40,659 nt of DNA from a virus. The translations under genes were made by a program, and so were the position numbers. Each line of letters starts with the position of its first letter. The first letter of the stretch is position 1. Location of the stretch: the IMG/VR virus record IMGVR_UViG_3300030390_000753, positions 1-40,659 of that record; one strand, given 5' to 3'. This document shows positions 2,235-12,158 of this stretch, piece after piece. Under the pieces are notes generated by a model, which was not told the origin of the DNA, made no database searches, and was given only the letters and a program-made list of their open reading frames with translations.

Positions 2235-2518
2235 TACTTATTCCTTAATATGTTTAGTATTTGCTTTTGATTATCCTTAATTTCTGCCCGCTCTTTCTGC
2301 GAATGCTCAACAGACAGTGTAACCACCGCCATAGCGGTCTTCAACTCTGCTAGATCTTTCTTCATTTGCTCTGTATGGGTTTGCGTTTCTTCAATAGCGT
2401 TCTTATTGTAATCTACCTGACTTCTTACATTGCTCCAAGCTCCAAGACCTACCGCTAAGGTAAGGAATACTGTAATTACATTGGCCATTGAGAATTCAGG
2501 GTTAATTTGCAAATCCAT
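2234..2518 (-). CDS. Small membrane-anchored coiled-coil protein (possible spanin or holin accessory)
   Basis: The protein has 94 residues. One hydrophobic segment lies near residues 11-29 (MANVITVFLTLAVGLGAW), followed by a long charged helix rich in Lys, Glu and Gln (ETQTHTEQMKKDLAEL, HSQKERAEIKDNQ). This N-in/C-out single-anchor plus coiled-coil layout matches i-spanin and XhlA-type lysis accessories. It sits directly after the putative holin, 1 bp apart, which supports a lysis role. No lipoprotein o-spanin was found next to it. The function is an inference from topology and position. Confidence 0.5.
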   Translation of the reverse strand: MDLQINPEFSMANVITVFLTLAVGLGAWSNVRSQVDYNKNAIEETQTHTEQMKKDLAELKTAMAVVTLSVEHSQKERAEIKDNQKQILNILRNK

Positions 2519-2519
2519 T

Positions 2520-2915
2520 TTATTTCCTTTCTACACCCTTAGACTTCTCGAAGCTACGCATACCACCAAGTCCCAGCATTCCTAAAAGGACTGGTAACAT
2601 TGTTTCTAGCTCGATAAGGGGGATTGATATTTCAGATGAGGCCAACGCTAACACAAAGTTAGTCATTGGGATGAGTAAGAAGTTAGCCGCCATACCTAGA
2701 CAGCAAGTCCAGCCGACAGCAGGTCGCCATCCGCTAACAAAGAGGCTGTGGTGCTTGGCCTCAGTGTTGTTAATTTCAAGTTGCGCTTTAATCTGCTCGT
2801 GCGCGTTTTTCTCTGCCATTGTGGCGATTTCGTGCGTAAGCTTCCTACGCAGATCTGAGTCAGGAATAGCTTTTTGCAGTAACGATGATATTGGTCCAAT
2901 TAAAGCTTCTAACAT
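2520..2915 (-). CDS. Holin, 3-TM GTA-type family
   Basis: The 131-residue protein resembles the phage/gene-transfer-agent holin family with three membrane segments: an amphipathic, charged N-terminal half, then SGWRPAVGWTCCLGMAANF, a second hydrophobic segment FVLALAS and a third LPVLLGMLGLGGMRSFEK. The GWRP...GW signature before the first membrane span is characteristic. It would form lesions in the inner membrane that release the M15 endolysin (22293-22637). It is the first gene of the late operon, about 108 nt below the promoter at 3030-3058. AAGGA lies only three bases before the ATG, an unusually tight spacing that may limit its translation. Confidence 0.75.
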   Translation of the reverse strand: MLEALIGPISSLLQKAIPDSDLRRKLTHEIATMAEKNAHEQIKAQLEINNTEAKHHSLFVSGWRPAVGWTCCLGMAANFLLIPMTNFVLALASSEISIPLIELETMLPVLLGMLGLGGMRSFEKSKGVERK

Positions 2916-3029
2916 AAGTCCTTATCTGCGAGCGTATGCGAGCAGTTCGCCGAGTTTTTTTAAGTGCCTCCCAGTAACGGAACGCTAAAGGGAGGCTGTC
3001 GGCCTGAGAGAGGGGGGACCGACCACGGT

Positions 3030-3058
3030 AGTATAGGGGCTAGAATCCTTGCTGTAAA
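3030..3058 (-). promoter_or_regulatory. Late promoter, sigma70 type, leftward
   Basis: On the minus strand, TTTACA (3053-3058) and TATACT (3030-3035) are separated by exactly 17 bp. Each hexamer matches consensus at five of six positions. Transcription would start near 3023 and enter the holin gene at 2915. A/T-rich tracts upstream (3059-3100) resemble an UP element. The leader contains a 7-bp hairpin (2966-2972 with 2990-2996). Confidence 0.7.
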
Positions 3059-3064
3059 ATAAAC

Positions 3065-3097
3065 GTGAAAAAAAGTTAATAAAGGTATGTTTTTCAC
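3065..3097. repeat. Inverted repeat GTGAAAAA/TTTTTCAC between divergent promoters
   Basis: GTGAAAAA at 3065-3072 is perfectly complementary to TTTTTCAC at 3090-3097, with a 17-base spacer. It lies just upstream of the late promoter -35 box, where an activator or an UP-element contact would be expected. The function is unproven. Confidence 0.6.
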
Positions 3098-3126
3098 TAC
3101 AACATAACAAATTGGTAATGTATACT
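3098..3126 (+). promoter_or_regulatory. Possible rightward promoter into the control region
   Basis: TATACT at 3121-3126 is a good -10 box, directly preceded by TG. The hexamer 17 bp upstream (TACAAC, 3098-3103) is a poor -35. If active, it would transcribe the structured segment from about 3133. Confidence rests on the -10 box only. Confidence 0.3.
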
Positions 3127-3132
3127 TAATGC

Positions 3133-3310
3133 CTGATCAAAGTGATCTCGGTCTTGAAGGATATGTCCGGCGAAAGCCTCCCTCACCGCTCAAGACTTAA
3201 AGCGCAAAAAGATACCTCACGGCGCATCTGAGTTCTAAAGACTGAACAGGAGGTGGACTACACGCTAGTAGAAGGCAGTCGAGTTTGCATAAAGCGTTAA
3301 TTGCAGACTA
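3133..3310 (+). ncRNA. Candidate structured non-coding RNA
   Basis: The segment lacks a reading frame but has several nested complementary pairs: GATC-AAAGT-GATC at about 3137-3149, GTCTTGA (3151-3157) with TCAAGAC (3190-3196), a GGC-GAAA-GCC tetraloop hairpin inside that stem (3169-3178), and GTTC/GAAC further on. It follows a possible promoter at 3121. I recognise no known RNA family. It could equally be a leader, a cis-acting packaging or origin element, or chance pairing. Confidence 0.3.
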
Positions 3311-3482
3311 TCCAAAGTCCTAAATGCGACTAAGGGTAAAAGGAACCAAGTTTAGATCTGTTATAGGTCTTTACTGGGGTTCTTTTATCCTTCAGAACCT
3401 AATACTACCTTGCACTTCCGTACCCAACTCCTCTGTAAGCCCCGCAGTTACTGCATTCTCCTATACAAATACACGACACCTA

Positions 3483-3498
3483 GTACCATATTTGGTAC
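3483..3498. repeat. 16-bp palindrome GTACCATATTTGGTAC
   Basis: GTACCA and TGGTAC flank a 4-base centre. On one strand it reads GTACCAAATATGG, identical over 13 bases to one of the repeats inside the O-like replication gene (11887-11904). It may be a second binding site for the replication initiator. This is an inference from sequence identity. Confidence 0.5.
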
Positions 3499-3999
3499 AC
3501 CTAAACGCTATATTCCTCTATAAGCTCTTGATTACACTCCCGATTTCCTATTTTGGCTCCGGTATATGGGGTGGATGTCCTAGCACAAAGAGGGCTGGCA
3601 AGTTGGGGGTGGGGGTCATATCCAGTCAGATCCAGAAGTCAAGTTAAATAGCTGTAATGTTGGTCCTATTATGTTTCGGGTAGGAAAACAAGTTAATTTT
3701 ATTTAATGTTGATGTATGTATGATGTGGGATATTCCATTCACCTAATCTATATCATCACTAACCTTTATAACCCTATGGCATACCGTCAATATATCGACA
3801 CAATAGCAAGTAACCGTCAGTGTTTTGACTACATTACAAATCTGTCATGTTATCAAATAATGCTTGCAATTATTCTCTGGCGATTTAAGCGATTTTATTC
3901 TAACCCTTGCCTTGGTATCAATTCTCTCTGCAAATGCCATGCGTAAAAGTCAATAGTAAAACCGTACAATTTCTAACCAAAACATTACGATAATGTAAC

Positions 4000-4027
4000 T
4001 TGTAAGCTAGCTTTCAATCGGTATAAT
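4000..4027 (+). promoter_or_regulatory. Early promoter, rightward
   Basis: TTGTAA (4000-4005) and a perfect TATAAT (4022-4027) are spaced by 16 bp, with a start expected near 4034 and the first gene at 4077. The -35 box and spacer are covered by the palindrome at 4001-4016. The 15 bases from 3994 recur exactly at 5557 in a second promoter of the same design. Confidence 0.75.
4001..4016. promoter_or_regulatory. Operator O1 (TGTAAGC TA GCTTTCA)
   Basis: This is a near-perfect 16-bp dyad with one mismatch from TGTAAGC-N2-GCTTACA. The same dyad lies at 5564-5579 (perfect) and 12744-12759 (two mismatches), each time overlapping a promoter. The likely ligand is the Cro-like protein at 12538-12711. 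Confidence 0.6.
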
Positions 4028-4076
4028 TATTTTATGGATCGGGCAATGATGCGCGACATAAAAGAGAGATAAGATC

Positions 4077-4220
4077 ATGGCTAAACTACTTAAAGCATTT
4101 AACGAAGCACCAACACAAAAGAACGCGGCACGTTTACTTAAACACTTAAACAAGCATCCAATGTCTGCGTGCTTTGTAGATCAATCAACAATTGATAAAG
4201 CAAAGGAGGTGGCCGCATGA
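4077..4220 (+). CDS. Small early protein, 47 residues
   Basis: This is the first gene of the early operon. Its ATG follows AGAGAGATAAGATC, and its stop overlaps the next start (ATGA at 4217). The peptide begins MAKLLKAFNEAPTQKNAARL and is basic and helical, with an Asn/Ala-rich first half and a KHPMSAC segment. It resembles small conserved proteins at the head of early operons in other tailed phages, but I cannot assign a function. It is probably a host-takeover or regulatory peptide, judging only from position. Confidence 0.7.
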   Translation: MAKLLKAFNEAPTQKNAARLLKHLNKHPMSACFVDQSTIDKAKEVAA

Positions 4221-4435
4221 TCAACTGGCATAATAAAACATTGAATAAAATGAAGTCCTTAAACGTTGAGTCTTTGCTATATATACGAAAAGACGCTTAT
4301 CAAGCTGCAAAAGCTGGCGATGGTTGGAATCCTAAAGCGGGCCAATATTGGGATGAGTTCCACTATGCATGCATGGAATTAAAAAAGCGCGGTATTAATA
4401 CTATCAATCTACCATTACAATCAAAAGAGGGTTAA
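4217..4435 (+). CDS. Early hypothetical protein, 72 residues
   Basis: The ATG overlaps the preceding stop (ATGA), and AAGGAGGTGG lies 6-15 bases upstream inside the previous gene, an excellent ribosome site. The protein is soluble and basic, with SLLYIRKDAYQAAKAGD and QYWDEFHYACMELKKR helices. There are no catalytic motifs. The 3' end (CAATCAAAAGAGGGTTAA) doubles as the ribosome site of the next gene. Confidence 0.75.
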   Translation: MINWHNKTLNKMKSLNVESLLYIRKDAYQAAKAGDGWNPKAGQYWDEFHYACMELKKRGINTINLPLQSKEG

Positions 4436-4438
4436 AAA

Positions 4439-4648
4439 ATGCAATATATAACAAGAGTTTTAACGAAAAGAGAAGTTCAAAACATGATAAAGGGTATCCG
4501 TTCTAGCGGCTTAAAGGTCAATAAAATAGACGGTGGCTATATTTGCAAGGCTATTGGACCGGACCAAAAAGAGCCAGTAGAAGTATTTAAGGCTATGAGC
4601 GGGAACAATAGCTATCTTGTGCGAATGGTTGACAATCTTTTCGCTTAA
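4439..4648 (+). CDS. Early hypothetical protein, 69 residues
   Basis: It starts 3 bases after the previous stop, using AGAGGG as ribosome site. The product is basic and short, with a predicted helix (LTKREVQNMIKGIRSSGL) followed by strands (KIDGGYICKAI, SYLVRMVDNLF). The KIDGGYxCK strand resembles KIDGGVEVW in the protein at 5094-5255, so the two may share a small fold. The family is not recognised. Confidence 0.7.
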   Translation: MQYITRVLTKREVQNMIKGIRSSGLKVNKIDGGYICKAIGPDQKEPVEVFKAMSGNNSYLVRMVDNLFA

Positions 4649-5256: not shown

Positions 5257-5568
5257 ATGGAAAGAATTAAACTTTACGGCCAAACATACGCCAAAAACGA
5301 CAAGGCTTTAGTAAATACGCTATTCAATGCCAGCGGCACCGCTAACGGCACGTTTAAGCGATACAAAAACCGCATAGAGCTAACGCATACTAGCGGCGAA
5401 GTTATGGCGGTAGTGAGAGCTATCGACGGCATAGTGCTATCAACTAAGGCTAACGGACGCTATATGCACTCGACAACCTCACAAGCCGACAAGCTATTTA
5501 GCGTGCCTGATAGCTTTATGGCGAAAACTGAACAAGCCGACGAACTATTACAAAATTGTAACTTGTAA
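5257..5568 (+). CDS. Early hypothetical protein, 103 residues
   Basis: The ATG follows GGAGGGCGTAAC with one base between genes. The product is basic and strand-rich (ERIKLYGQTYAKND, FKRYKNRIELTH, EVMAVVRAIDGIVLSTK), ending in a helical tail LFSVPDSFMAKTEQADELL. Its stop codon lies inside the operator-promoter at 5563-5590. No function can be assigned. Confidence 0.7.
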   Translation: MERIKLYGQTYAKNDKALVNTLFNASGTANGTFKRYKNRIELTHTSGEVMAVVRAIDGIVLSTKANGRYMHSTTSQADKLFSVPDSFMAKTEQADELLQNCNL

Positions 5569-5590
5569 GCTGGCTTACATCTACTAACAT
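5563..5590 (+). promoter_or_regulatory. Second early promoter, same architecture as 4000-4027
   Basis: TTGTAA (5563-5568) and TAACAT (5585-5590) are spaced by 16 bp, exactly as in the first early promoter. The 15 bases from 5557 are identical to those from 3994. It would drive genes from 5631 onward independently. The -10 box is weak (four of six), so strength is uncertain. Confidence 0.5.
5564..5579. promoter_or_regulatory. Operator O2 (perfect TGTAAGC-TG-GCTTACA)
   Basis: This is the perfect version of the dyad. It overlaps both the stop codon of the 5257-5568 gene and the -35 box of the internal promoter, a position that suits direct repression by the Cro-like protein. Confidence 0.65.
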
Positions 5591-6375: not shown

Positions 6376-6603
6376 ATGAGAGCGATAATCAGAGCAATTA
6401 ACTACACTGGCGACGATAAAATACTTAAGGAGGCATACGACGAACATTTAGATTTCATTTTTATGGATTGGTTTAACAACTTTTTAACCGTCGAGCGATT
6501 CGCAGAATATTATGATTTAGAAATAAAGCAAGCTAAAAAGGCCATTGATGCAGGTCGAGAAATACATGATAAGAGAGTTAATAGGCTGGAGGTTATAGAA
6601 TGA
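6376..6603 (+). CDS. Early hypothetical protein, 75 residues, possible HTH
   Basis: The ATG follows AAAGGGGCTTTAAAA. Residues 35-60 (LTVERFAEYYDLEIKQAKKA) look like a helix-turn-helix: two short helices with a DLE turn. The last codons carry GGAGGTTATAGA, which is both the end of the protein (EVIE) and the ribosome site for the next gene, with ATGA overlap at 6600. Confidence 0.65.
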   Translation: MRAIIRAINYTGDDKILKEAYDEHLDFIFMDWFNNFLTVERFAEYYDLEIKQAKKAIDAGREIHDKRVNRLEVIE

Positions 6604-6770
6604 AAATCTACGGGGTGTATGATGTTTATGGTGGTGCCAACTACGGTGAGACGGTAGAAATAGACCGATATTATTCAGATAGAGAAAAGGCTTTAGAGTT
6701 TATAGCTAATGAGGGCGGCCCTGAAGCAGATTTAACTGACTGGTTAGTTGAAATTGAGGTTATAGAATGA
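6600..6770 (+). CDS. Small early protein, 56 residues
   Basis: ATG 6600 overlaps the previous stop and TGA at 6768 overlaps the next ATG (6767). The product (MKIYGVYDVYGGANYGETVE start) is acidic, with a strand-rich first half and a helix (DREKALEFIANEGG), ending EVEVIE-like (EIEVIE). The 15-base string GAGGTTATAGAATGA is repeated at both of its ends. It resembles small phage proteins of unknown function. Confidence 0.65.
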   Translation: MKIYGVYDVYGGANYGETVEIDRYYSDREKALEFIANEGGPEADLTDWLVEIEVIE

Positions 6771-7030
6771 TACATGATAGAGAATTCCCATTTGATGAAA
6801 TAAAACGCAAAGACGGCGACTACTTCAACACCGCAAAGGAAGCAATGACCGCAACTGGCCTAGATTCCAGCCATGTGTGGGTGATCATTGAGAGCGATAC
6901 GGGCAATGATAACGAATATTGTTACACCACCTCACCGCCTCATCATTACATCAATAAAATAGGCTATATAGCCACACAAGAGAAGCACGACCACGAAACG
7001 TACTATAACGAAATAGTAAACTTTGCATAG
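6767..7030 (+). CDS. Early hypothetical protein, 87 residues
   Basis: It is translationally coupled to the previous gene by ATGA. The product has an acidic-aromatic composition, with a central VWVIIESDTGNDNEYCY strand pair and several His (PPHHYINK, EKHDHETYYNE) that could bind metal, though no known motif is formed. Gene order suggests host takeover or a regulatory role. Unassigned. Confidence 0.7.
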   Translation: MIHDREFPFDEIKRKDGDYFNTAKEAMTATGLDSSHVWVIIESDTGNDNEYCYTTSPPHHYINKIGYIATQEKHDHETYYNEIVNFA

Positions 7031-7041
7031 GAGCATATAAC

Positions 7042-7191
7042 ATGAATTTATTGTACAACGTGCTAGTGAATAACGAAAAAATCAATCAAAGGCCGCTCGA
7101 ATGGGCAGAAATGCAGACCTTATGGTATCTATTGGAGCAAGAGGGCGAACGGAACATTCGAATAATGCCTCTTAAGGAGCTAGAAAAATGA
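7042..7191 (+). CDS. Small early protein, 49 residues
   Basis: The ATG at 7042 follows TAGGAGCATATAAC, a good ribosome site. The stop overlaps the next start (ATGA at 7188). The product (MNLLYNVLVNNEKINQRPLE start) is helical, with a WAEMQTLWYLLEQEGER amphipathic helix. No family recognised. Confidence 0.6.
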   Translation: MNLLYNVLVNNEKINQRPLEWAEMQTLWYLLEQEGERNIRIMPLKELEK

Positions 7192-7376
7192 ATAAAGCAG
7201 CATTATATTATCTAAAAAACTATTATCTGGACCTATCGCATCAGCTAGAATCAGGTGGCATTGATAAAATTAACTTTGCAAGTGAGTCCACGCCTTATTT
7301 TGATGAAGACAGCGAAGCAAGAGAGTATTTAATTAATTTAGCAATAGTTATTGATCAAATGGAGGCTAACAAATGA
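7188..7376 (+). CDS. Small early protein, 62 residues
   Basis: It is coupled by ATGA to the genes on both sides, with AAGGAGCTAGAAA as ribosome site. It is acidic and helical (LYYLKNYYLDLSHQLE, DSEAREYLINLAIVIDQME). No conserved motif is visible. The end (ATGGAGGCTAACAA) supplies the ribosome site for the last gene of the operon. Confidence 0.65.
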   Translation: MNKAALYYLKNYYLDLSHQLESGGIDKINFASESTPYFDEDSEAREYLINLAIVIDQMEANK

Positions 7377-7459
7377 ATAAATTAGCCCATGATATATTTT
7401 GGCTAACCCTTAGCGGCTTTATCGTAGGCACTTGGATAGCCTATAGATTAACTTTTTAA
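7373..7459 (+). CDS. 28-residue single-span membrane peptide
   Basis: The last frame of the early operon overlaps the previous stop (ATGA) and has GGAGG 7 bases upstream. The peptide begins MNKLAHDIFWLTLSGF and is one hydrophobic helix with charged ends. The overlap, ribosome site and terminator 23 bases downstream argue that it is a real microprotein. Confidence 0.55.
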   Translation: MNKLAHDIFWLTLSGFIVGTWIAYRLTF

Positions 7460-7481
7460 CCCTTGCAGATTGTTAGTATTC

Positions 7482-7505
7482 GCCCCTTAATTGGGGCTTT
7501 TTTTT
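7482..7505 (+). terminator. Intrinsic terminator of the early operon
   Basis: GCCCC (7482-7486) and GGGGC (7493-7497) flank a TTAATT loop, followed directly by eight T residues. This is a textbook Rho-independent terminator, 23 bases after the last small gene. Confidence 0.9.
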
Positions 7506-7570
7506 GCCCCTAGCAAAGCCATACGGTACACTGTTAAACTTAAACACAAGGCCACATAGGAGCTTATACA

Positions 7571-7828
7571 GTGTCTAAAAAAGAGCAGACCCATATTACA
7601 TGGGCAGATTTAACAAATAGGGACCGTTCACTCATATCAATGGATTGTGAACCAAACTTTACGCGAGCAATGATTGATAGGATGTCGCTTACATTGAGTG
7701 AGGAGCAGATCATGCAAATTGAGGAGGGATTCAGGGTTGCTGATCCTGAAATTGTTAAGAATGCACTATACGACCACCTAGTAAACTGTATCTTTGATGA
7801 CGTTCACATAAACAGACTGGCCGTATAG
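7571..7828 (+). CDS. Hypothetical protein, 85 residues, GTG start
   Basis: The start is GTG at 7571, with TAGGAG eight bases upstream. It lies beyond the early terminator, so it needs its own promoter or read-through; I see only weak -10-like sequence (TACACT about 7533). The product is acidic and helical, with LTLSEEQIMQIEEGFRVAD and VNCIFDDVHINRLAV segments. It is convergent with the metallophosphoesterase gene, with 50 bp of A/T-rich DNA between them. Unassigned. Confidence 0.65.
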   Translation: MSKKEQTHITWADLTNRDRSLISMDCEPNFTRAMIDRMSLTLSEEQIMQIEEGFRVADPEIVKNALYDHLVNCIFDDVHINRLAV

Positions 7829-7878
7829 TTTTATATACACACAAATACATACAAAGTTAAGTTTTATATATACATTAG

Positions 7879-9036
7879 CTATATGCGCTCAGTTGAGCGT
7901 CTAACTTCGCCCTTGTCTTTGTCTAGGACAATTAAGCACATTGATTGACCGCTAACGTAACCACTCGCATCGTGCCACGCATCGCTAGGTGGTAATCCTG
8001 CGAATGATTCGGTAATTGTCTGGCCGTACGTTTCAGCGCTTATCTTTTTGCTGTGAATGTGACCATGCCAACAATACCTATGCTCACTTGCACCCCAAAC
8101 CTCAGGATAACGACCAGCGAAGAACTCAGCCATTTTCGCGTGCTTTAATGTATCGCCATGCGTAGTCATAAACGCTGTTTTTCCGTGTTGGTGCACCCAT
8201 GTTGCAGTAGGCGACATTTCAATGCTTACACGCTTGTTATTACGCCAATACGCTTGCTGCTGGCATCGTATTAGCTGAGTCAACACCGCATCGTGATTGC
8301 CCTTACAGTGCCTTACAATGACCTTGTTAAACCGCTTTAGCGATTCCTCGACCATAAACGACATCACATCTAGGCCAACTAGCACAATATTCTCTAATCT
8401 GCCGTCAGTATCGACCGGCGTACCTTTTGTGGTGGTGCTGGTATAGGTATCTGAGTGAAAATAATCACCTAACTGGTTAATTATCAGTGTTTCACACTCT
8501 GGCGCGTTATTCATTAGCCGCATAAACACATCTTTGTGGCGATCCGCAGCAATTTGGCAGTCATAATCCTCACCTGACACGCCTTTATCGGCATACATGC
8601 CAAAATGGGCATCACCAATGTTAATAACAGCTAATTCCTGATCTTTTTTCTTCTTTTTTGGCTTAGGTACTGGCGGAGACTTTTTCTCATGGTCTTTTAA
8701 GAACTCATCAAGCGCTCTTTTTATTGCCGCAGTCTGTTCTTCTTGGCCCAGTGCTGACTTAACCCACTGCACTTTAACCTGACCATCATCGCCGTATAGC
8801 GTACTAACGCCTTTAGCTACAAATCCCTCTGGGACAGAGCGAATCATATCGTGTTCAGGCGACCATCCACGCTTTGCAGCGTTCTTTTTTACGTTAGCAA
8901 TGTTTTGATGGATATTTCTAAGACTAATTCCTAGTAAATTAGCCGCTTCTTGAGCTGTTCTTGTGTCAATTCTGGCTTGGACCGCTTTTCTTTGCGCTTC
9001 TGTCTGACAATATTCTAGTAAACTCTCACTGATCAT
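7879..9036 (-). CDS. Phage metallophosphoesterase with N-terminal HTH
   Basis: The protein has 385 residues. Residues 20-60 (TAQEAANLLGISLRNIHQNI) form a helix-turn-helix. The calcineurin-like core follows a Lys-rich linker and shows the full metal-ligand set: GDAHFG, GDYFHSD, KGNHD, THGDT and HGHIH. The family comprises nucleases and phosphodiesterases; similar proteins are common in phage replication regions and may process DNA ends. It is the last gene of the leftward replication operon, overlapping the upstream gene by 11 bases. Substrate is unknown. Confidence 0.85.
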   Translation of the reverse strand: MISESLLEYCQTEAQRKAVQARIDTRTAQEAANLLGISLRNIHQNIANVKKNAAKRGWSPEHDMIRSVPEGFVAKGVSTLYGDDGQVKVQWVKSALGQEEQTAAIKRALDEFLKDHEKKSPPVPKPKKKKKDQELAVINIGDAHFGMYADKGVSGEDYDCQIAADRHKDVFMRLMNNAPECETLIINQLGDYFHSDTYTSTTTKGTPVDTDGRLENIVLVGLDVMSFMVEESLKRFNKVIVRHCKGNHDAVLTQLIRCQQQAYWRNNKRVSIEMSPTATWVHQHGKTAFMTTHGDTLKHAKMAEFFAGRYPEVWGASEHRYCWHGHIHSKKISAETYGQTITESFAGLPPSDAWHDASGYVSGQSMCLIVLDKDKGEVRRSTERI

Positions 9037-11522: not shown

Positions 11523-12158
11523 CTATACCCATATTGATGTGTCTTGCTTGCTATCACCTTTCTTGATAGTCAGCACATCCCATTTATCCCTTAACTTCTT
11601 TGGACTAAGGATATTTGACTTCCAAAAATCATCGCTATTGGCAAACCTAAATAAACTTAGTATCTCGCTATGAGAATAGCTATCTTTTTCTCTCATCAAT
11701 CTGACCTCATTAGCCCATGATTCCATAGCTGGTTTTTTGTGCTTTGGATTCAAAGTTAATATCAAATTGTAGATCGTTTCTGCTGTCTCAAGATCACCAT
11801 TTTCGTAGTGTAGGTTCTTTTTAGGTTTACTTTTAGGTTTGTGTCCCAAATTTGGTACTGCTTTTAGGGAATTTTGGGCTACCCCCTGTCCCATATTTGG
11901 TACTACCTCAACTGCTAAGAAATACTGATTACTTGATCCCTCCACTTTGATCCTACTAAGCACTTCTTGATCGCTAAGTAACTTCAATGATTTAAGAATT
12001 GTTTTTCTGTCTAGCGATGTCTTTTTACAAATGTAATTCACACTGGGATTGCACTGACCAGTATCTGCGTTATGGCAATCTGCCAAGCACAGCAGGACGA
12101 GCTTCTCCGATGAAGGCACTTGCACCTCCCAAGCCCAGAATGTCGCTCTAGCGCTCAA
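11523..12158 (-). CDS. O-like replication initiator (winged helix)
   Basis: The 211-residue protein starts with the lambda-O-like helix-turn-helix: SSEKLVLLCLADCHNADTG, then NPSVNYICKKTSLDRKTILK and LKLLSDQEVLSRIK. The C-terminal part is basic and helical and may contact the helicase. Between them the gene carries two 18-bp repeats (11842-11859, 11887-11904), reminiscent of lambda-type origins inside O genes; at protein level they give VPNMG and VPNLG. It overlaps the zinc-finger gene by ATGA and precedes the helicase gene by 9 bases. Confidence 0.7.
   Translation of the reverse strand: MSARATFWAWEVQVPSSEKLVLLCLADCHNADTGQCNPSVNYICKKTSLDRKTILKSLKLLSDQEVLSRIKVEGSSNQYFLAVEVVPNMGQGVAQNSLKAVPNLGHKPKSKPKKNLHYENGDLETAETIYNLILTLNPKHKKPAMESWANEVRLMREKDSYSHSEILSLFRFANSDDFWKSNILSPKKLRDKWDVLTIKKGDSKQDTSIWV
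11842..11904. repeat. Iteron-like repeats inside the O-like gene (candidate origin)
   Basis: TGTCCCAAATTTGGTACT (11842-11859) and TGTCCCATATTTGGTACT (11887-11904) differ at one base and start 45 bp apart. The core also appears in the 16-bp palindrome at 3483. Lambdoid origins are embedded in the initiator gene in the same way. Replication function is inferred. Confidence 0.5.

Follow-up and report, generated by a model that had tools for sequence, protein, structure and literature searches.

The virus record analysed here (40,659 bp, referred to in its full length as the window) contains a non-coding gap at 2916-4078, flanked by leftward lysis genes on one side and rightward early genes on the other. 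Which function does such a long non-coding stretch serve? An earlier note had read its part up to 3330 as a divergent control locus with a structured RNA-like segment, resembling a locus with a regulatory RNA or an antitermination or packaging element. The portal of this phage shows at most ~31% identity to annotated phage portals among the matches listed, including that of Pseudomonas phage UFV-P2.

Control sites of the divergent locus

The features of the locus are summarized in Table 1. The leftward promoter proposed in the earlier note was confirmed on the minus strand, and both hexamers recur by eye in those relatives that retain the segment. The inverted repeat and the rightward -10 box were equally found in place, as were a hairpin (2966-2996) and a GTCGG/CCGAC pair (2998-3002/3019-3023) in the late leader. 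A box resembling the TATACT -10 is also seen by eye upstream of the RNA in relatives. A promoter scan of 2500-4500 gave 7 promoter-like sites compared to 5.8 expected and is on its own no evidence.

An 18-bp operator-like pair in inverted orientation brackets the whole RNA region. Its left site was found with the 3833 site as pattern (3 mismatches, 0.04 matches expected in all). Furthermore, the stretch 3984-4016, which overlaps the early promoter-like sequence, is repeated at 5547-5579 with 85% identity over 33 nt.

Table 1. Features of the locus and of the distant initiator gene (window coordinates).
Feature	Position	Strand	Remarks
Rz-like spanin gene	2234-2518	leftward
Holin gene	2520-2915	leftward
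Sigma-70-like promoter, lysis/late side	3030-3058	-	TTTACA-17-TATACT, 10/12 matches
8-bp inverted repeat GTGAAAAA/TTTTTCAC	3065-3072/3090-3097		retained in close relatives (by eye)
Operator-like site over putative RNA promoter region	3102-3119	-	inverted copy of 3833-3850
-10 box TATACT of putative RNA promoter	3121-3126	+	start inferred at ~3133; poor -35
Structured RNA core, putative gene of a new family	3148-3410	+	ends approximate; predicted from sequence
P1	3151-3157/3190-3196	+	covariation; encloses P2 and family motif GAYATGTC...CTCACCG
P2, GGC-GAAA-GCC tetraloop hairpin	3169-3178	+	covariation
P3	3202-3205/3222-3225	+	interlocked with P4 (pseudoknot); two-sided changes at one pair
P4	3214-3218/3250-3254	+	interlocked with P3; two-sided changes at one pair
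P5	3228-3230/3247-3249	+	invariant within window clade
P6, pseudoknot of P5 loop	3240-3244/3276-3280	+	two-sided at 6/6 pairs (43 members), 1/5 in window clade
P7, hairpin CTAC/GTAG	3258-3271	+	two-sided changes at 4/4 pairs, window clade
P8, stem	3282-3309	+	two-sided changes at 6/8 pairs, window clade
Element A GTCCTAAATG	3317-3326	+	placed by position relative to P9, as in other members
P9, long 3' stem	3334-3347/3378-3390	+	96.2% of cells paired; 1/13 pairs two-sided, 5 one-sided
Element B GAACCTAATA, 3' edge	3395-3404	+	placed by position after P9, as in other members
Iteron-like palindrome AGTACCATATTTGGTACA	3482-3499		~75 nt after B
G-rich run TTGGGGGTGGGGG	3603-3615	+	retained in window-clade relatives (by eye)
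Operator-like site	3833-3850	+	ahead of early promoter-like sequence (4000-4027)
O-like/DnaD-like replication initiator gene	11523-12158	-	two 18-bp iteron-like repeats, 11842-11859 and 11887-11904

Predicted structure and covariation of the RNA

The segment 3148-3410 looks like a putative gene of an RNA of ~265 nt, whose fold includes two pseudoknots and, towards the 3' end, a long stem. Positions 3127-3400 fold at -81.5 kcal/mol (z = -2.78), and none of 200 shuffled sequences was equally stable, which places the structure beyond chance. The nested stems described in the earlier note, GTCTTGA/TCAAGAC around the tetraloop hairpin, are exact and represent P1 and P2. The segment had been drawn to end at 3330 and thus ~80 nt short, since the conserved element continues to ~3410. 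P5 and P6 interlock in the same way as P3 and P4.

The covariance analysis suggested in the earlier note was carried out and revealed compensatory changes; among 43 members P1 changes on both sides at 7 of 7 pairs and P2 at 2 of 3. Considering the entire 5' domain of these members (18 pairs), 90.2% of the cells are paired compared to 57.2% after shuffling, 17 pairs change two-sidedly (13.4 shuffled) and covariation amounts to 0.752 (0.176 shuffled). The two-sided count is lowered because P1 of the window clade, i.e. the close relatives of the window phage, by eye sits one column out of register. The outermost pair of P6 fails in 18 of the 43 members.

Within the window clade (14 sequences; 52 pairs in nine helices) 98.5% of the cells are paired versus 91.4% after shuffling, and two-sided changes occur at 16 pairs spread over eight of the nine helices (10.7 shuffled). 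A contrary measure is the number of further pair types, 30 compared to 33.5 in the shuffles. Slid controls favour the drawn structures because these were drawn from the same sequences.

A chance structure was rejected on the covariation in both data sets. A protein-coding reading of the mechanical ORFs 3324-3647 and 3716-3946 was judged unlikely as well, given that the conserved 5' domain varies as base pairs. A tRNA/tmRNA search returned none.

Distribution of the RNA family

The Rfam search advised in the earlier note matched zero Rfam 15 families over the RNA: the covariance models gave 0 matches in the window at gathering score, and relaxing the E-values brought up no credible match over the RNA, whether in the window, in L105 or in ten loci. 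The RNA is likewise unreported in the literature searched, a body with most subscription papers and preprints outside its scope.

Relatives of the holin gene together with a pattern scan (24 stretches) exhibit a near-invariant block from 3148 to ~3410 with diverged flanks. Blastn against phages gave a weak match to Pseudomonas phage 16Q (29 nt, E 0.02), with which the profile concurred, and the 16Q sequence has the same RNA architecture as the window. With 16Q as query 154 phage records were obtained, all of them Pseudomonas and 30 covering most of the query; with L150, a member from a virus contig, there were 131 (124 from Pseudomonas and 7 from Vibrio), none of which covered most of it. Vibrio phage 1.064.O (L227), the one Vibrio phage checked, reaches 44.6 bits with the model. 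Gapped patterns returned a further 18 and 60 stretches, some unrelated. The 76 gapped-pattern loci include plainly unrelated coding sequence, and filtering for the motif and for complementary P1 strands retained 78 candidate members from all loci, 77 of them long enough to yield the 56 representatives used in the repeat tests below.

Among 84,980 prokaryote species one exact pattern had 0 matches and a second had 3, keeping in mind that diverged copies escape such patterns. L229 is the sole true copy of this set (95.3 bits, 35-kb contig), since L230 and L231 match a short piece only. Its contig belongs to a MAG labelled Armatimonadetes and is probably phage because the phage RNA is present. 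On this survey, the predicted RNA is found almost only in phages, namely those of Pseudomonas and Vibrio and many virus contigs.

Model R1 applied to 80 holin loci gave 13 matches at E 0.01, all within the 18 loci of at least 79% holin identity. The other five of these 18 (L006, L009, L010, L011, L015) end short of the RNA position, and no usable empty site was found among the 80. Three more distant holin relatives (L062, L052, L020) score 9.7-13.7 bits with R1 and possibly represent diverged copies.

A matched but freely changing repeat

The same two alignment places are linked, within a few columns, by an exact repeat (7 nt or longer) in all 13 Pseudomonas members, one place being ahead of P9 (element A) and one at the 3' edge (element B). 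Of the 56 representatives, 24 have an A/B match of at least 10 nt; this length is reached in 83 of 3080 cross pairs and in neither of two control regions (0 of 56 each). At a length of at least 8 nt the numbers are 42 of 56 versus 324 of 3080 cross pairs, 4 and 3 of 56 in the controls and 72 of 1120 shuffles. The repeated sequence (X) is 8-16 nt long, with the maximum in L153; when X sharing the first 8-mer are collapsed and the spurious repeat of L175 is left out, 34 are left, some still related.

X differs between phages as well as between the two copies of one genome: GTTTTGGATAG and ATCTACAT in KIL1, ATTCTAGATAG and ACTTACGAGAA in 16Q, ATTGTGGA and ATCCGCAGAA in KoPa-4. Within a single predicted RNA gene, A and B thus change together. 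Moreover, two copies with different X imply that one sequence-specific protein does not readily explain the identity of A and B. In these three genomes the four X of at least 10 nt are present only at A and B, although chance occurrences are not expected either. Their complement is absent elsewhere in the 20-kb pieces searched, in which matches spanning a border escape, and the two 8-nt X are uninformative here. A trans target of the longer X within these three phages was rejected on this basis.

The window itself is a weak case. Its A and B share CCTAA only, and the repeat is not claimed for the window alone. The A/B match is likewise weak throughout the window clade, where the longest matches are 5-7 nt and lie in the right place only in L088 (CAACTAA).

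If A paired with the complement of B, wobble pairing would permit an excess of G in A opposite A in B. At the first 3' mismatch this combination indeed prevails (13 versus 2 for the reverse), but at the first 5' mismatch the ratio is 5 to 8, and all mismatches within 5 nt give 43 to 31 for G/A and 38 to 37 for T/C against C/T. These tables add L227 and L229, and L175 is left out of the 3' count. The asymmetry was thus discarded as support: it is confined to the 3' side, where a ribosome-binding sequence at B explains part of it. B abuts a Shine-Dalgarno sequence or a start codon in many Pseudomonas-type members. In many of these, too, A and B can each be drawn by eye as a small CTC...GAG hairpin. 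Reverse-complement matches between the A and B regions are longer within members than across (8.14 versus 6.32), which we ascribe to the stem strands included in these regions.

Downstream of the RNA, the conserved string GGCTCCGGTATATGGGGTGGATGT (3555-3578) recurs in the window clade, as does the G-rich run TTGGGGGTGGGGG. This string resembles the GGCTCC-X context around element A of other members. In L160, L172, L175 and L180, B has a G-rich run (e.g. GGGGATGGGGATGG) no more than ~50 nt behind it.

Taken together, comparative analysis gives solid support to the prediction of a new family of pseudoknotted phage RNAs which, in much of the family, carry a matched A/B repeat. The earlier note saw neither the RNA family nor its pseudoknots, the A/B repeat or the link to iterons.

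Copies per genome and neighbouring genes

Model R1 was run on 20 records, all of which were selected through a locus and therefore necessarily match, and found 34 places. Seven named Pseudomonas phages of ~95 kb have exactly two copies each on one strand, 32-36 kb apart when the map is treated as circular and with nearly constant spacing over the seven. The 13 other records, some of them fragments, have two copies in seven cases and one in six, including the window. The packaging element suggested in the earlier note is without support in view of two far-apart copies in each of these seven phages and no Rfam match; its more general reading as a conserved structured RNA at a divergent control locus holds, and its interpretation is thus supported in part.

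In the seven named phages the RNA position carries no annotation or is assigned to short hypothetical genes. Both copies lie between a leftward and a rightward gene block in KIL1, PAK_P1 and KoPa-4. One copy precedes tRNA genes in KoPa-4 and tRNA genes followed by terminase in KIL1, and in PAK_P1 and L152 a copy precedes a block leading to primase/helicase. The RNA is located ahead of terminase and portal in L148 and L172, the portals of which belong to different families, and ahead of a ResIII-type helicase in L146 and L150. Divergent junctions are not the rule, as L227 has rightward genes on both sides and in L172, L160, L118 and others both neighbours are rightward by mechanical ORFs.

L153, a phage contig with 16 tRNA matches, contains a sub-threshold match to YrlA (Y RNA-like) at 7976-8093 (-), scoring 40.5 bits at a threshold of 69. 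It adjoins a DUF2828/DUF7788 protein (6388-7833, -), perhaps forming a Ro-like RNA-protein pair.

An iteron-like motif links the RNA locus to an initiator gene

The palindrome after B was found with a symmetrised pattern and also, at 2 mismatches, with the repeat of the O-like gene itself. The 18-bp motif is present in eight of nine window-clade records, while the reversed control pattern matched once. Four records have it at the RNA locus and at a distant place, with G018 as a fifth if its RNA-locus site is counted; three records, all fragments, have it at the RNA locus only. The distant place is the O-like gene in the window and in three other records scanned.

Altogether 26 of 35 RNA loci (many being duplicates of one contig) carry the motif, in most cases at a distance of 328-335 nt from the RNA core. 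Of the nine loci lacking it, seven end before this place; L087 and L098 reach it yet lack the motif. G014 has three tandem copies 23-24 bp apart in an iteron-like manner.

Iterons within the O gene are the arrangement of phage lambda. Because the O-like initiator gene contains iterons, the main origin is probably at ~11.85 kb. Judged from these motifs, the main origin likely lies within the O-like gene and the RNA locus with its one iteron would have an auxiliary or regulatory part. DnaA boxes show no enrichment (1 found, 5.3 expected). GC skew tracks the gene strand by eye and is uninformative.

Possible modes of action

Since the A/B repeats are matched, A would have to meet the strand complementary to B. 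We infer that this partner is the template DNA, with replication following. The template strand at B would be available during transcription, and an antisense transcript across B would serve equally. As a tentative first choice, we propose that A, while still nascent, anneals to the template strand at B in an R-loop resembling that of ColE1 RNA II and tied to replication. The RNA would be transcribed rightward from its own promoter and act in cis during its synthesis. Its 5' domain would fold and present A. As soon as RNA polymerase clears B, A would pair with the template strand there, giving a stable R-loop as with ColE1 RNA II. This R-loop would open the DNA or prime replication of the phage; in the window clade it would do so next to a putative binding site of the O-like initiator.

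The R-loop reading takes first rank as the only one to make use of the A/B rule, and the match statistics, the restriction of X to A and B and the initiator motif at the RNA locus are consistent with it. Against it stand the weak A/B match of the window clade, the probable main origin elsewhere, the single iteron, the non-divergent copies, the lack of DnaA enrichment, the position of B at Shine-Dalgarno sequences and the mixed wobble result. It was graded slightly lower, and antitermination slightly higher, because the wobble is one-sided and copies occur off divergent junctions.

A regulatory RNA or antitermination element as considered in the earlier note is compatible with the data. An antitermination or anti-pausing leader similar to put of HK022, in which the nascent RNA binds its own host polymerase so that long operons are read and A/B would set a pause or hand-over at B, is the main rival and on balance doubtful. 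The copies heading rightward blocks (KIL1, KoPa-4, PAK_P1, L152, L148, L172, L146, L150) speak for it, and such a place at operon heads suits an antiterminator and an R-loop to a similar degree. In KIL1 and 16Q one copy is followed, on a rough ORF call, by a block longer than 30 kb; the block of the other copy is broken up in that call. HK022 itself carries two put sites of ~70 nt each according to the accessible text of PMC9378689, which at the same time makes put far smaller and describes no A/B repeat there. Moreover, the window RNA heads only a ~4 kb block while the long leftward late block is without a copy, and three genomes have few terminator-like sites (6-9 per strand, counted without a chance control).

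A regulatory RNA acting in trans that has two identical seed loops and targets host RNA or blocks a host machine is unlikely. The compact, conserved fold and the CTC...GAG hairpins drawable at A and B would suit it, but X varies between copies of one genome and X of at least 10 nt have no complementary site elsewhere in the three phage genomes.

Very unlikely is a guide RNA belonging to an RNA-guided or mobile system that is so far unrecognised, with B as its DNA target: guides of such systems typically have a loop identical to flanking DNA, many genomes have two copies and the ORF directly after one copy in KIL1 is annotated 'putative endonuclease', but no recombinase, reverse transcriptase or homing nuclease was found among ten proteins scanned from seven loci, and the near-constant copy spacing in seven phages is unlike a mobile element. 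Equally improbable is a plain 5' leader serving the next gene, as a riboswitch-like element or in translation control, as might be suspected from B abutting Shine-Dalgarno sequences or start codons; the window early genes begin ~670 nt past B behind another promoter-like sequence, the next rightward ORF of L148 is ~300 nt away, the next long ORF of L229 is leftward and the genes after the RNA are unrelated between members.

Comparison with known systems

In ColE1, a loop of RNA II is paired with the template DNA close to the origin, a direct repeat comparable to A/B. The persistent hybrid of RNA II is cut by RNase H, and DNA synthesis proceeds from it. Such a repeat at the 3' edge is seen at the level of the phage RNA family and is weak in the window clade. 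ColE1 has no initiator protein of its own, in contrast to the window phage with its O-like/DnaD-like initiator. The phage RNA further differs from RNA II in lacking any sequence or family match, in being about half as long with two pseudoknots, and in being phage-borne with up to two copies per genome and a proposed role in replication. GOLLD and ROOL are likewise large structured RNAs and in part phage-borne; by their descriptions they are longer and of other structure, and no such family appeared in the Rfam scans.

As far as the accessible part of PMC5043065 describes it, ColE1 RNA II sets the precedent of a persistent RNA-template hybrid used as primer; it is a non-coding RNA made by the host polymerase, properties that we propose for the phage RNA. 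Two abundant non-coding RNAs of a Pseudomonas phage, sRNA1 and sRNA2 of PAK_P3, are by their description in the accessible text of PMC4933390 ~100 nt long, and one lies between tRNA genes. HK022 put shares the features of a phage RNA heading operons with two sites per genome, cis action on polymerase being only a proposal for the RNA described here. The put RNA itself binds the beta' zinc-binding domain of the polymerase and thereby suppresses termination in cis. The two stem-loops given for put in the accessible text of PMC9378689 contrast with ~265-310 nt, two pseudoknots and the A/B repeat.

The predicted RNA class is absent from Rfam 15 and the literature searched, and every one of the seven named Pseudomonas phages has two copies. 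Its A/B repeat, matched yet free to change, is an uncommon signature. It is conceivable, with more doubt than belief, that we are dealing with a widespread class of phage RNA which programs its own DNA target through an element copied from its 3' edge and re-hybridises to the template, perhaps in replication initiation. With the same reserve, the element would in that reading change freely yet stay matched, the event taking place at one or two sites per genome. Should A pair with the template, the ColE1 design would have a counterpart in phages; should the RNA be an antiterminator, it would do the job of put at a much larger size.
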